NCBI GenBank assembly: GCA_003218945.1
Contig: QHPE01000130.1
Location: forward strand, 1-40,889
Direction of reading: 5' to 3'
DNA from: Verrucomicrobiota bacterium
GTDB lineage: Bacteria; Verrucomicrobiota; Verrucomicrobiia; Chthoniobacterales; UBA10450
Length of the DNA: 40,889 nucleotides
Shown here piece by piece: positions 3,079-18,265 of the stretch. Positions within the stretch are counted from its first letter, which is position 1. The number at the start of each line of letters is the position of its first letter. The translations under genes and the position numbers were made by a program. The notes below the pieces were generated by a model. The model did no database searches. It was given only the letters and a program-made list of their open reading frames with translations, and was not told the origin of the DNA.

Positions 3079-4035
3079 ATGAGGCGGCGCTGCATTCAGT
3101 TTAAATCCGACGCGCTGCGGAAGTTTCCGCCGCGCTGCCGCTACCTGATTGCTGTTTCGGGCGGGCGCGACTCGGTCTCGCTGCTTCATTGGTTAGTCCA
3201 GCTTGGTTATCGCAAGTTGATCGTCTGCCATCTTAATCATCAATTGCGTGGCCAGTCTTCGCGGGCAGATGCGCGTTTTGTCGAAAAAGTCGCGGCGGAA
3301 TACCAGGCCGATTTTGAAATCGGTTTGGCAAATGTTCAGGCTCTGGCGAAAAAACAAAGGATATCGATCGAAACTGCGGCGCGTGAAGCGCGCTACGCAT
3401 TCTTTGCTGAAACCGCCCGACGGCGAAACTGCAGAACGATCTTCGTCGCGCATCACGCCGACGATTTGGTCGAAACTTTTCTAATTAATCTGTTTCGCGG
3501 GGCCGGGAGCGCCGGCCTGAGTGCGATGCAGGAGACTTCTATTCGGCGAATCGACAGGCTCGAGTTAACAATCGTGCGGCCGTTTCTTCGCTTTTGGCGC
3601 AAAGACATCGATGAGTATGTCGGCGAGCACGGACTGAAATTTCGCGAGGATGCTACGAACAAAAATCTCAGACCCCTTCGCAACCGCATCCGACATCGGA
3701 TCATTCCGTATCTTGAGAAAACCGTTGGCCGCAACATCCGCCGGAACATTTGGCGAACAGCGATTATTGCTGCGGAGGAAGAGAAATGGATGGGAGGCGA
3801 GCTACTCGATTTGACCCGTGCAGAACTTTCCGTGCCAGCCATCCGTGCGCTGCCGATCGCGTTTCAGCGTCGTGCGATTTTGAAATGGCTGCGCGCGCAA
3901 AACGTTTCGAACGTTGGATTCGATGTGATCGAGCGCGTTCGGTCGCTCGCCGATGGTGACACTCGAATCGCAAAAGTGAATCTTCCGGAAAATCGACACG
4001 CACGGCGTCGCGCGGGAAGGATTTTTGTGGAGTGA
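3079..4035 (+). CDS. tilS: tRNA(Ile)-lysidine synthase
   Basis: TilS attaches lysine to C34 of the CAU-anticodon tRNA-Ile using ATP, so that it reads AUA codons. The PP-loop SGGRDS (residues 27-32) binds ATP, and the family block HHADDLVETFLINLFRGAG follows. At 318 residues it lacks most of the C-terminal domain present in E. coli TilS (about 430 aa) and is close to the short Aquifex-type form. The start is the ATG in GATAATGAGG; no strong ribosome site is seen. It is followed by a hairpin-doublet repeat and then gltX on the same strand, so both genes serve tRNA function. Confidence 0.93.
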   Translation: MRRRCIQFKSDALRKFPPRCRYLIAVSGGRDSVSLLHWLVQLGYRKLIVCHLNHQLRGQSSRADARFVEKVAAEYQADFEIGLANVQALAKKQRISIETAAREARYAFFAETARRRNCRTIFVAHHADDLVETFLINLFRGAGSAGLSAMQETSIRRIDRLELTIVRPFLRFWRKDIDEYVGEHGLKFREDATNKNLRPLRNRIRHRIIPYLEKTVGRNIRRNIWRTAIIAAEEEKWMGGELLDLTRAELSVPAIRALPIAFQRRAILKWLRAQNVSNVGFDVIERVRSLADGDTRIAKVNLPENRHARRRAGRIFVE

Positions 4036-4039
4036 TTTG

Positions 4040-4119
4040 CTGTAGCGGCGCTCTGTGAGCGCCGAATTGGTACGATGCAATTCTCTCGCTTAGTCGGCGG
4101 TCATAGACCGCCGCTACAG
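4040..4119. repeat. REP-like hairpin-doublet element (type A)
   Basis: The ends are exact 11-bp inverted repeats, CTGTAGCGGCG and CGCCGCTACAG. Inside are two 8-bp hairpins with 3-nt loops: CGGCGCTC-TGT-GAGCGCCG (4046-4064) and CGGCGGTC-ATA-GACCGCCG (4095-4113). The first 29 bases are nearly identical to those of the element at 25297, so this is a dispersed family. Confidence 0.85.
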
Positions 4120-4141
4120 TTCGTGCCTAAATTACGGCGCA

Positions 4142-12236: not shown

Positions 12237-13085
12237 ATGGCCCTTAAAGAATTTCGCCCATTAACTCCGACACTGCGTTTTAAGTCGCTGCCCGCGTTTG
12301 ATGAAATCACGAAGTGGCGTCCTGAAAGGAGACTTGTTGAGCCAAAAAAAAGAAGCGGCGGCCGCAACAACCGTGGTCGGCTGACGTCGCGGCACATTGG
12401 CGGCGGCCACAAGCAAAAATATCGCAAAGTCGATTTCAAACGACGCAAGCACGGCATCGCAGCGGAAGTGATCGGAATTGAGTATGACCCGAACCGCTCG
12501 GCCCGCATTGCTCTCATTAAGTACACCGACGGCGAAATGAGCTACATTCTCGCACCAAACGGACTTCGAGTCGGAGCGACCGTTTCCGCCGGGCTCGACG
12601 TTGCGTCTGACTTGGGCAATGCCCTGCCGCTTCGCGCGATCCCCTTGGGCACGAATGTTCACAACATTGAATTGACTCCGGGCCGCGGGGGCCAGGTCGC
12701 GCGCAGTGCCGGGCAACAGGCGACGCTCACGGCCCTCGAGGCTGGTTATGCATTAGTGAAAATGCCGTCTGGCGAAATTCGCCGAATTCACGAGACCTGT
12801 TTCGCGACCATAGGCCAGGTTGGCAACGTCGATCATATGAATGTTTCGAGCGGCAAGGCTGGGCGTACTCGCTGGCGAGGCCGGCGACCGCATGTGCGCG
12901 GCATGGTGATGAATCCCATCGACCATCCAATGGGCGGTGGTCAGGGTAAATCAAAGGGCGGTGGCGGTCGCCATCATCCTGTCAGTCCATGGGGTCAGTT
13001 GGCGAAAGGCTTCAAAACTCGTAGTAAACACAAACCAAGTGACCGTTTTATTTTGGAGAGGAAAAGACCCAAGAAAAGAGCGTGA
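12237..13085 (+). CDS. rplB: Large ribosomal subunit protein uL2
   Basis: L2 is needed for subunit association and peptidyl transfer. [35 protein letters not shown] and [13 protein letters not shown] are characteristic. The His of the IDHP motif (E. coli His229 region) is kept, while the second His of the usual DHPHGGG is Met here. Length 282 is close to normal. It starts just after the repeat element and has no obvious strong ribosome site. Confidence 0.96.
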
Positions 13086-13086
13086 C

Positions 13087-13140
13087 GTGAATCGCAACTC
13101 GCGAATCGAAAGCGGCTCGGATTCACGATTCTCGAATTAC
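13087..13140. repeat. Short inverted repeat between rplB and rpsS
   Basis: GTGAATCG (13087-13094) pairs with GATTCAC (13120-13126), and further CGAATC/GATTC pieces lie between and after them. It fills the rplB-rpsS gap. The pairing is short, so its status as a dispersed repeat is tentative. Confidence 0.35.
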
Positions 13141-13156
13141 GAATAACTTGCAATTT

Positions 13157-13435
13157 ATGGCTAGATCGTTAAAGAAAGGACCCTTCGTCGAGTTGTATCT
13201 TCTGGAAAAGATCGACAAGATGAACGCATCGGGCGTAAGGAAACCGATCAAGACCTGGTCGCGACGCTCGATGGTGACGCCGGACTTTGTCGGCCACACG
13301 TTTCTGGTGCACAACGGAAAGACGTTCAATTCCGTCTTCGTTACCGAGAACATGGTGGGCCACAAGCTCGGCGAATTTTCGCCTACGCGCGTGTTTAGGA
13401 AACACGGCTCGCATACGGCGAAGGTCACGAAATAA
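13157..13435 (+). CDS. rpsS: Small ribosomal subunit protein uS19
   Basis: S19 is a 30S head protein contacting S13 and 16S r[46 protein letters not shown] and the [13 protein letters not shown] end are canonical; 92 residues is the standard length. I start at the ATG of MARSLKKG rather than the in-frame TTG nine bases upstream. In most bacteria rplV follows at once; here a non-ribosomal gene and repeats intervene. Confidence 0.95.
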
Positions 13436-13527
13436 TTGCACATTGCAGATTGCAGATTGCGGATTGGCAGCTCGCGGCTACGTCGTGGGCTCGTGCAATT
13501 TGCAATTTGCAATTTACAATTTGCAAT
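13436..13527. repeat. ATTGCAGATTGC / GCAATTTGCAAT inverted simple repeats
   Basis: Left arm: repeated ATTGCAG-type heptamers (13436-13466). Right arm: GCAATTT heptamers repeated about four times (13495-13527). The arms are roughly inverse complements. The right arm overlaps the signal-peptide-coding region of the coiled-coil gene that follows. Confidence 0.65.
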
Positions 13528-14275
13528 CGGGTTTTGCGCGTATGCGCAGGGAAATAGTTCTTTGTCAGAATCCAAAAGCGGAACCGTCACGCAGTCGGCG
13601 AAGGCTGAGCCTGTGGCAGCGGAAACAGAATTGCGAAGACAATTGTCGATCGCGCAGGAATCGCTTAAGGCCTTGACCAGCAGCCTGGCGGAATCCAACG
13701 CGGAGGCGGAAGAACTGCGTCGCAGGTATTCCGATCTCCAGTTGCGAATGGAAGCGCTGGGTCTGGGATCGGCGAACAAGGATCGTGCGAAACTCGAGCA
13801 GCGGTTGCTCTCCGCAGTGAGCGATCTTGGGTTGGCGCAGAAAGCTCGTAACGAATATCGCGACCAGATGCTACGGCTGAACGAAGCGATCTTGCGTTAT
13901 TTTAAAACGTCGCAGGGCGGTGACGCGCAGGCGCGCATGGATGTAGAAGCGCAATTGCGCAGCACGAACGAGCTGGTGACGAGATCGACAAACGGGTCCG
14001 GGGCCGCGGAGCCGACTTTAATGGACGGCAGCGTGATCAGTGTTAAGGAGGAATGGTCGTTTGTCGTCGGCAATCTTGGCGAAAACCAGGGAGTGAAGAT
14101 CGGGATGCCTATGCGGGTAATGCGGGAGGATCGAAAGATTGCAACGCTGCGGGTGGTAGATGTGCGACAGAAGGTATGCGGCGCGGTCGTTCAGGAAATG
14201 GATTCGAGGAAGGAAAAGATTAAAGTGGGTGACCGCCTCCAAGTGGATGCGCAACCCGATGTGAGTTTGAAATAA
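13493..14275 (+). CDS. Secreted or periplasmic coiled-coil protein within the S10 operon
   Basis: Unrecognised family. From a GTG at 13493 the protein has about 260 residues. It begins VQFAICNLQFAIGFCAYAQG, a plausible signal peptide ending AYAQ, but without the usual basic n-region unless the upstream in-frame TTG at 13436 is used (RRLRRG-type stretch). A coiled coil follows, rich in Glu, Leu and Arg (from about ELRRQLSIAQES to LEQRLLSAVSDLG). A compact C-terminal domain contains EWSFVVGNLGENQGVKIGMPMRVMRE and ends KIKVGDRLQVDAQ, resembling the small beta domains of some envelope proteins. The hydrophobic core is encoded by the GCAATTT repeat. Its place between rpsS and rplV is abnormal; co-transcription with ribosomal genes is likely. 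Confidence 0.7.
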   Translation: MQFAICNLQFAIGFCAYAQGNSSLSESKSGTVTQSAKAEPVAAETELRRQLSIAQESLKALTSSLAESNAEAEELRRRYSDLQLRMEALGLGSANKDRAKLEQRLLSAVSDLGLAQKARNEYRDQMLRLNEAILRYFKTSQGGDAQARMDVEAQLRSTNELVTRSTNGSGAAEPTLMDGSVISVKEEWSFVVGNLGENQGVKIGMPMRVMREDRKIATLRVVDVRQKVCGAVVQEMDSRKEKIKVGDRLQVDAQPDVSLK

Positions 14276-14281
14276 AGGAAA

Positions 14282-14364
14282 GGTTAAAAGAGTTACAAGA
14301 GTTACATTGCTTAAAAGAAAGAGCGTTCCTGTTGTAACATTGTAACCCTTTTAACTTTTTAACC
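14282..14364. repeat. Long inverted repeat before rplV
   Basis: The arm at 14282-14306 (GGTTAAAAGAGTTACA core) pairs imperfectly with 14333-14364 (TGTAAC...CTTTTTAACC). About 26 bases separate the arms. Together with the repeat at 13436-13527 it brackets the coiled-coil gene. The 3' arm includes T-runs, so partial termination is possible. Confidence 0.65.
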
Positions 14365-14374
14365 TCGCGAAGCG

Positions 14375-14851
14375 ATGGAAGTCAGATCGACATATAAATA
14401 TGCGCGGATTTCGCCCTTCAAGGTGCGCGAAGTCACGCGTGAGATTCAAGGGCTGCCTGTTTCGGCGGCGCTGGATTTGCTTGCGTTTACTCCGAAGAAA
14501 GCGGCGTCCTTGATCGGCAAGACCCTCAAGAGCGCAATCGCCAACGCCGAGAACAACGCGAATCTCAAAGCTGACGGTTTGGTGGTGAAGGAAGCGACCG
14601 TGGGTGAAGGACCGACCTTGAAGCGGATCATGGCACGTGCCCGCGGTAGCGCCAGCCGGATTTTGAAGCGCACGAGTCATATTCGCATCGTGCTTTCGGA
14701 CGAAATCGCCATTGAGACGCGAGCGACACGAAAAGCGAAGCGAAAAGCCGAAAAGAAAGCGACAAAGAAGGAGAGTAAGAGCGAAACCACTCAAAACGCG
14801 TCGGGCGAGAGCAAGTCGGACAAAAAGACCGCCAACCAGCCAAACAAATGA
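14375..14851 (+). CDS. rplV: Large ribosomal subunit protein uL22
   Basis: L22 spans the 50S subunit and forms the tunnel constriction (macrolide site). YKYARISPFKVREVTREIQG, KKAASLIGKTLKSAIANAENN and GPTLKRIMARARGSASRILKRTSHIRIVL are canonical. The core ends near residue 112. A Lys/Glu/Ser-rich tail of roughly 40 residues follows, so the protein (158 aa) is much longer than the E. coli one (110). rpsC follows 11 nt later. Confidence 0.95.
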   Translation: MEVRSTYKYARISPFKVREVTREIQGLPVSAALDLLAFTPKKAASLIGKTLKSAIANAENNANLKADGLVVKEATVGEGPTLKRIMARARGSASRILKRTSHIRIVLSDEIAIETRATRKAKRKAEKKATKKESKSETTQNASGESKSDKKTANQPNK

Positions 14852-17285: not shown

Positions 17286-17858
17286 ATGAAAAACGAATTT
17301 CGTCGTCATTACAAAGAGCATGTTATGCCCGCGCTTCAGGAACGCCACGGCTATAAGAACGCCCATCAGATTCCAAAGGTGGAGAAGGTCGTGATCAACA
17401 CTTCGGTGGGCTCACAATCTGACGTGAAGCAAGCGCTGGAAGAAGCGAAGGCCGAGTTGTCGCTGATTACCGGACAGCGCCCAGTGGAAACGCTGGCCAA
17501 GAAAAGTATTTCTAACTTCAAGTTGCGCAAAGACCAGGCCATCGGCGCGAAAGTCACTCTGCGCGGAGAGCGCATGTATGAATTTCTCGAGCGGTTCATC
17601 AAGGCCGCCCTCCCGCGCATTCGCGATTTTCGCGGCGTATCTCCGAGGTGTTTCGATAAGCATGGTAACTACACCATCGGTATTTCCGACCAGTCAATTT
17701 TTCCTGAAATCGAACTCGACAAAATCAAGCGCAACATCGGATTTGATGTTACAATTGTAACTACGGCGCGAACGGACGAGGAAGCTAAATCGCTTCTAAG
17801 TGAGATGGGGATGCCGTTCAGCGACCGGGCGAAGAAGCCCGCCGCACAAGCGGCCTGA
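17286..17858 (+). CDS. rplE: Large ribosomal subunit protein uL5
   Basis: L5 forms the 5S rRNP with L18 and contacts the P-site tRNA. FRRHYKEHVMPALQERHGYKN, PKVEKVVINTSVGSQ, GQRPVETLAKKSISNFKLRKDQAIGAKVTLRGERMYEFLERF occur in order, and the RDFRGVSPRCFDKHGNYTIGISDQ-type segment follows. 190 residues from the ATG of MKNEFRRH, slightly extended at the C-terminus. rpsH follows without rpsN in between. Confidence 0.96.
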   Translation: MKNEFRRHYKEHVMPALQERHGYKNAHQIPKVEKVVINTSVGSQSDVKQALEEAKAELSLITGQRPVETLAKKSISNFKLRKDQAIGAKVTLRGERMYEFLERFIKAALPRIRDFRGVSPRCFDKHGNYTIGISDQSIFPEIELDKIKRNIGFDVTIVTTARTDEEAKSLLSEMGMPFSDRAKKPAAQAA

Positions 17859-17866
17859 TTTTTTTA

Positions 17867-18265
17867 ATGAGTACTGTTACAGATCCTATTGCTGATTTTC
17901 TGGCGCGCGTCCGCAACGGCGTGCGTGCGCAACGACCTGAGGTACTCGTGCCGTACTCGAAAATTAAAGCGGAACTTGCGCGTATCTTAAAAGAGGAAGG
18001 TTACATCTCGGATTACTCCGTCGACACAGGCGGAGAGCACCCGCGCATCAAAGTGATCAATAAGCTTGTAGACCGATCCAGCGCGATCGCAGGACTGCGA
18101 CGGATCAGCCGGCCCGGTTTGCGCCGTTACGTTGGTGCGGATGAAATCCCGCGGGTTCTTGGTGGAATGGGTCTGGCGATCCTTTCCACTTCGCGAGGTA
18201 TTTTGTCAGGCCGCGAAGCGAGAAAGCAAAAGGTCGGCGGCGAACTGCTGGCGTATGTTTGGTGA
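17867..18265 (+). CDS. rpsH: Small ribosomal subunit protein uS8
   Basis: S8 binds the 16S central domain; in E. coli it is the spc-operon repressor. TDPIADFLARVRNGVRAQ, VPYSKIKAELARILKEEGYI, ISRPGLRRYVGADEIPRVLGGMG and the STSRGILSGREARKQKVGGELLAYVW C-terminus are canonical. 132 residues, normal length. Confidence 0.96.
   Translation: MSTVTDPIADFLARVRNGVRAQRPEVLVPYSKIKAELARILKEEGYISDYSVDTGGEHPRIKVINKLVDRSSAIAGLRRISRPGLRRYVGADEIPRVLGGMGLAILSTSRGILSGREARKQKVGGELLAYVW

Follow-up and report, generated by a model that had tools for sequence, protein, structure and literature searches.

Few gene strings in bacteria are as conserved as the S10 operon. The sites of the NusB-S10 complex (S10 being NusE), called boxA, belong to rrn leaders and to suhB- and NusE-linked genes, where they lie in leaders or 5' UTRs. 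The gammaproteobacterial boxA consensus is GYTCTTTAANA, and autoregulation of NusE through boxA has been predicted widely (PMC5725501). Hairpins whose arms consist of degenerate heptanucleotide repeats are known from Nostoc tRNA-Leu introns (PMC3488679). The locus described here lies in a window, the whole analysed stretch of 40,889 nt from a soil-dwelling Verrucomicrobiota bacterium of the order Chthoniobacterales (GCA_003218945.1, contig QHPE01000130.1), with the gene order fusA-rpsJ-rplC-rplD-rplW-rplB-rpsS-[gene]-rplV-rpsC...secY-adk, in which the names of neighbours absent from the following list were read off their translations. The features of the locus are:

13157..13435, + strand: rpsS (ribosomal protein S19), the upstream neighbour (PF00203, E 1.5e-36)
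13436..14275, + strand: the gene, 279 codons if read from TTG 13436 (start uncertain); its predicted product is exported and combines a coiled coil with a beta-barrel
13436..13526, + strand: 5' hairpin with arms of degenerate heptamers, (ATTGCAG)n opposite (CAATTTG)n, which coincides in part with the codons of the signal peptide
13436..13546, + strand: likely signal peptide, residues 1-37, cut between AYA and QG (from the sequence; AF2 helix 16-35)
13557..13569, + strand: boxA-like element GTTCTTTGTCAGA inside the coding sequence, right after the signal peptide
13613..13990, + strand: predicted coiled-coil region, residues 60-185 (AF2 helices, pLDDT about 70-97 over most)
14018..14254, + strand: predicted C-terminal small beta-barrel, residues 195-273 (AF2 strands; resembles FlgT 3w1e and the F1-ATPase crown domain)
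14278..14360, + strand: 3' hairpin of 8-9-nt words (GTTAAAAGA/GTTACAA) in the gene-rplV spacer (fold and scan)
14375..14851, + strand: rplV (ribosomal protein L22), the downstream neighbour (PF00237, E 6.2e-37)

The initial annotation had recognized an exported coiled-coil gene between rpsS and rplV, and this gene is real: its frame is open from the codon right after the rpsS stop (TAA TTG) up to 14275, and in 63 of 73 loci it is unbroken from the rpsS stop to the mature start. Purifying selection on it is strong (median dN/dS 0.098 over 53 close pairs). Neither a sigma-70 promoter nor a T-tailed terminator stands out, and the window gives no match in Rfam; a reading of TTGACA/TTGTCA as an internal -35 promoter was dropped, as it had neither a -10 element nor a promoter match. 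Abundance at the level of ribosomal proteins had also been anticipated. Co-expression with these follows from the position of the gene in the operon, but the protein may be scarcer than assumed, because its TTG or GTG start lies at or near the rpsS stop and, in some species, within a strong hairpin. Further downstream, in the spc part of the cluster, rpsN is missing between rplE and rpsH (window 17858-17867).

The N-terminus of the protein comprises a basic n-region and a hydrophobic core (h-region LVQFAICNLQFAIGFC) followed by the predicted cleavage site, and some distant members resemble, by eye, lipoproteins or anchored proteins (LVAAC, LGSGC). The protein thus appears to be exported or membrane-anchored in the envelope. 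An AF2 model built with 34 orthologues (mean pLDDT 74, pTM 0.32) places coiled-coil helices at residues 60-107, 117-158, and 164-185 and strands at 198-270. For the C-terminal domain, a structure search had been suggested; on this model of mean pLDDT 74 it returned FlgT (3w1e) with a Foldseek E of 4.4e-4 and the F1-ATPase crown domain with a Z of about 10 and an rmsd of about 2 over about 70 residues. As modeled, the protein therefore starts with a signal peptide or anchor, continues as a coiled coil, and ends in a small beta-barrel of the F1-ATPase-crown/FlgT-C type, the fold shared by the FlgT C-terminal domain (PF16538) and the crown barrel of the F1-ATPase alpha and beta subunits. The order of these parts agrees with that in MreC, but the second barrel of MreC is absent, and the ribosomal cluster contains no mreB neighbour. 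No named family in Pfam or NCBIfam scored above its cut-off; in particular, the window protein has no Pfam match to FlgT_C (PF16538) or MreC (PF04085), and a sequence search of the PDB gave weak matches, mostly to generic coiled coils. Elsewhere in these genomes, a paralogous family combines an N-terminal anchor, a coiled coil, and the same barrel (L002, L079, L080, L081); its matches are sub-threshold, with 17.7 vs 27 bits for FlgT_C in one paralogue and 17.6 vs 28 bits for MreC (PF04085) in L080.

Among the relatives compared, mostly MAGs, the gene is an old, vertically inherited feature of much of the phylum, fixed just upstream of rplV. It adjoins rplV in all 80 named loci fetched and lies between rpsS and rplV in 75 of the 75 named Chthoniobacterales loci with both flanks. 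To judge from L108, the genus is likely Candidatus Udaeobacter. The families of the order retain it with few exceptions (G039, G040, G043, G049, G052), and Akkermansia and several other families, including those of other classes, have it between the same neighbours; among the carriers is genome G168, which we take to be A. muciniphila ATCC BAA-835. Weaker, phylum-level profile matches adjoin rplV in 22 of the genomes checked, and in most such regions that were read the product looks exported or anchored and has this barrel at its C-terminus. The assumption that rpsS and rplV are nearly always adjacent fails in Verrucomicrobiota: in a sample of 120 genomes the distance between them was at least 300 nt in 41, below 200 nt in 34, and in between in 2, and the two genes were on different contigs or far apart in 43, including closed genomes (G063, G102, G138, G172, G176). 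A gap above 300 nt is no proof of the gene, as G052 and G039 have such gaps without it. Among the loci with a split S10 operon (L221-L240, L199), 21 were read, and in 14 a homologue-like frame lies directly upstream of rplV, some of them called by eye from the barrel signature; after a break between rpsS and rplV, the gene thus mostly leads the part that contains rplV. Through much of the phylum the gene has kept its neighbours, apart from losses and operon splits, which is largely the outcome that the initial annotation had named as refuting its idea. Of the two origins first proposed, the lineage-specific envelope gene is supported by the export or anchor signals in the sequence, provided that the lineage is taken to be the phylum and not the genus. 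The other proposal, a fixed insertion, is as a recent event contradicted by orthologues in the same slot across the order, Akkermansia, and several other classes, and by the turnover of the flanking hairpins while the gene stays. A literature search on Verrucomicrobia found nothing about the gene, their S10 operons, or palindromes of this kind, and the gene is not named in the section consulted of an essentiality study of V. spinosum (PMC12283558).

A boxA-like element within the coding sequence was missed in the first reading. Within the window, YTCTTTGWCARAWT is matched perfectly just once, by TTCTTTGTCAGAAT at 13558-13571. The codons AGT-TCT-TTG open the mature region, and TCT and TTG are invariant in 64 of 64 aligned species, with a synonymous entropy of 0 where 66 comparable codons average 1.33 bits, whereas other conserved degenerate codons nearby vary freely; conservation at the base level thus exceeds what the protein demands. 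The word lies 76-140 nt past the rpsS stop in six families (f1, f2, f7, f9, f10, f12), among which the codons around it change (AGT, CGA, CGC, CGT). Synonymous shuffling recovered a strict match in 0.15-5% of trials, depending on the family, for a motif that was chosen after the data had been seen; comparison with rrn leaders and the loci from other classes are more independent tests. At the same place, other families of the order have GATCTTTGACAGAT, GTTCTTTGACAGG, GCTCTTTGAAAGAT, TCTTTGACAAAT, and TTCTTTCTCAGAT. In families of other classes, TTGTTCTTTGATG, AGTTCTTTGACG, GGTTCTTTGAAG, AGTTCTTTGAAT, and TGTTCTTTGAGC occur while the protein changes around the word, and GTTCTTTGA is found at +112 to +136 in f38, f57, and f36, with differing neighbouring residues and at up to 74% GC. 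A search of the rpsS-rplV gap in nine genomes that lack the gene did not find the word, and neither did a search of the gene itself in Akkermansiaceae, Verrucomicrobiaceae, and several further families in which the gene is retained. The element is therefore not present wherever the gene occurs, as our proposal, though not the definition of boxA, would have it; this limits the element and not the gene, and since families retain the gene without it, boxA does not keep the gene in the operon everywhere. In one species (L111 / L029), the mature N-terminus is gone together with the TCTTTG word and the larger part of the signal peptide, and the gene resumes near LANEQLQKQL.

Similar words precede the rRNA genes. 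In the same lineage, rrn leaders contain GATCTTTGACAGT in seven of the eight f1 genomes that have the 16S 5' end, counting GATCTTTGATAGT in G070, and the 16S leaders of the family have GATCTTTGACAGTTTGG, or a word close to it, at a distance of 210-345 nt upstream of the 16S gene. In f28, f33, and f36, this distance is about 165-170 nt and the word is GTTCTTTGAAAA/GATCTTTGACAA. Words of the boxA type TCTTTGA are found repeatedly in rrn leaders across the phylum; f38 has the word in the gene, yet its rrn leader word is GCTCTTTGGAAA or weaker. The wider pattern WTCTTTGWCAGWWT matched 43 times in 35 relatives, against 2 matches for the reversed control; about half of the 43 were this gene, and the others were rrn leaders or scattered sites in unrelated genes. 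With the core TCTTTGA/TCTTTGTCA in common, the S10 site (GTTCTTTGTCAGA, in other families GATCTTTGACAGAT) matches the TCTTTGACAG-type boxA words of the rrn leaders of its lineage, with about three differences from the rrn site found there, and it agrees with the gammaproteobacterial consensus (PMC5725501) at 9 of 11, that is, at all but two. Like NusE-linked boxA it is tied to the operon that encodes S10, but unlike the known elements it would be a boxA in mid-operon, inside a translated gene. Based on the codon constraint, the rrn leader words, the excess of WTCTTTGWCAGWWT, the shuffles, and the published boxA and NusE autoregulation, we regard the word as a candidate boxA (NusB/S10) antitermination site within the S10 operon.

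Alternatively, the invariant TCTTTG might be kept for reasons of protein or translation, and its likeness to boxA be a coincidence: the mature N-terminus could be fixed, or slow codons could hold up translation as the signal peptide makes contact with the export machinery. The position of the word directly after the signal peptide would fit this explanation, as would the conservation of the residues [SRGC]SL and the minority share that AGT, TCT, and TCA have among the serine codons of neighbouring genes. Exact codons are kept, however, not merely slow ones, and the flanks change (SSLS, RSLT, CSLM, GSLK, SSLN) while GTTCTTTG or its core persists. Furthermore, some species have TCTTTC or TCTTTT, which encode Phe, so that the base word outlives the residue, and the same word occurs in rrn leaders. 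We therefore consider a purely protein- or translation-based constraint rather unlikely.

The interpretation towards which we lean, with modest confidence, is that an old, exported or anchored envelope gene resides in the S10 operon together with a boxA-like element that keeps RNA polymerase going into rplV...secY, and that the hairpins at its ends are young. Ribosomes ending rpsS would re-initiate weakly on the gene, whose mRNA would therefore be less covered by ribosomes than that of its neighbours and open to Rho. In Chthoniobacterales and some distant families, the boxA-like element right after the signal-peptide or anchor codons would be loaded with NusB and S10, the product of rpsJ upstream in the same operon; NusB-S10 would keep Rho off, and the polymerase would be carried through into rplV...secY. 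The flanking hairpins would be young elements invading spacers, one of which supplied part of the signal peptide. Antitermination of this kind predicts read-through, not termination, at 14278-14360. Several points speak against boxA: ribosomes translating this region could push NusB-S10 off the word, some families keep the gene without it, the rrn leader of f38 has only GCTCTTTGGAAA or a weaker word, and the S10 site departs from the published consensus and from the rrn site of its own lineage.

The gene might also have entered the operon by ancient chance and have been kept there since breaking a ribosomal operon is costly, so that its position would have no regulatory meaning. Lineages without the gene in which rpsS and rplV are tightly spaced (the 34 of 120 gaps below 200 nt) could be cited for this scenario; however, where the operon was split the gene mostly stayed with rplV, and many species have it running up to or into the start of rplV (TAATG, TGATG, TAAATG), and we judge such a history unlikely.

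Both inverted repeats described in the initial annotation exist. When the 40.9-kb window was scanned for inverted repeats, the 5' repeat scored 44 and the 3' repeat 48, compared with a maximum of 34 in 250 dinucleotide shuffles; RNA 13436-13535 folds at -50.3 kcal/mol (z -8.8) and RNA 14276-14374 at -28.7 kcal/mol (z -3.5). The repeat described as upstream does not lie upstream of the gene but overlaps its first ~30 codons, and therefore encodes the signal peptide. Its tandem degenerate 7-mers pair in both arms as in the cyanobacterial tRNA-Leu hairpins (PMC3488679), but those sit in introns, whereas here spacers and the signal-peptide region are occupied, with periods of 7, 8, and 9. The gene-rplV spacer measures 0-18 nt in 36 of 64 family members, the gene stop often abutting or overlapping the rplV start, and is a 65-117-nt hairpin in the other 28. 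The words of these hairpins are degenerate, with period 7 (GAATCGA; 3' spacers of L112, L115, L140) or, elsewhere and in the 3' element of the window, 8 (GTTGAAGC) or 9 (GTTAAAAGA). The word types were assigned automatically and only roughly (L108 was put under 8-9 despite GAATCG-type words), and we therefore relied only on the empty or occupied state of the spacer, which changes seven times on a tree built from rpsS, gene, and rplV DNA, at least six of them on starred branches. The 5' repeat is likewise replaced from species to species and here encodes the signal-peptide core. The hairpins are thus young repeat elements that change or vanish between sister species and are unrelated to the origin of the gene.

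Further repeats were seen nearby. A GAATCG repeat upstream of rpsS (13082-13156) folds no better than chance (z -0.1) and is perhaps a decayed hairpin. A REP-like inverted repeat, GTAGCGGCGCTCTGTGAGCGCCG ... CGGCGGTCATAGACCGCCGCTACA, lies at window 4020-4140, and a similar one fills the gene-rplV spacer of L117. A wider scan of the source genome covered 194 kb, the window plus 20 contigs, and nine of its hits were false, arising from runs of N.

Selection of the hairpins as regulators that set the dose of exported versus ribosomal proteins, be it as attenuators, RNase sites, or translation locks, has a low probability in our view. The folds are strong in the window and, for the 3' element, across species (median z -4.1), and in the source species the 5' hairpin covers the start region; yet close relatives have no hairpins or other word families, a T-tract terminator is lacking, and many species show a weak fold at the 5' element (median z -2.3). 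It is highly improbable that the repeats bracketing the gene in the window are the ends of a mobile element that brought it into the operon, as they differ in sequence and period, relatives in the order have the gene in the same slot without them, the downstream slot flips between empty and occupied at least six times while the gene stays, and matching ends with an empty site in close relatives were not found. Eye-catching repeats beside a gene need not account for its arrival.

Returning to the candidate boxA, a feedback loop is possible, if doubtful, in which S10, made early from the operon, would join NusB on the boxA, set how far the polymerase reaches into rplV-secY, and so couple the supply of ribosomes with that of envelope protein and translocon. 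If this were true, the splitting of the operon at rpsS-rplV in parts of the phylum would follow from an internal boundary, and the internal boxA would suggest a reason for where the S10 operon breaks. A boxA within coding sequence of a ribosomal-protein operon would, if confirmed, extend Nus-factor control from rRNA to ribosomal proteins in mid-operon. Irrespective of the element, this phylum-wide, predicted exported protein of the S10 operon, which belongs to no named family, makes a strong candidate for a role basic to the envelope of Verrucomicrobiota, including Akkermansia muciniphila.
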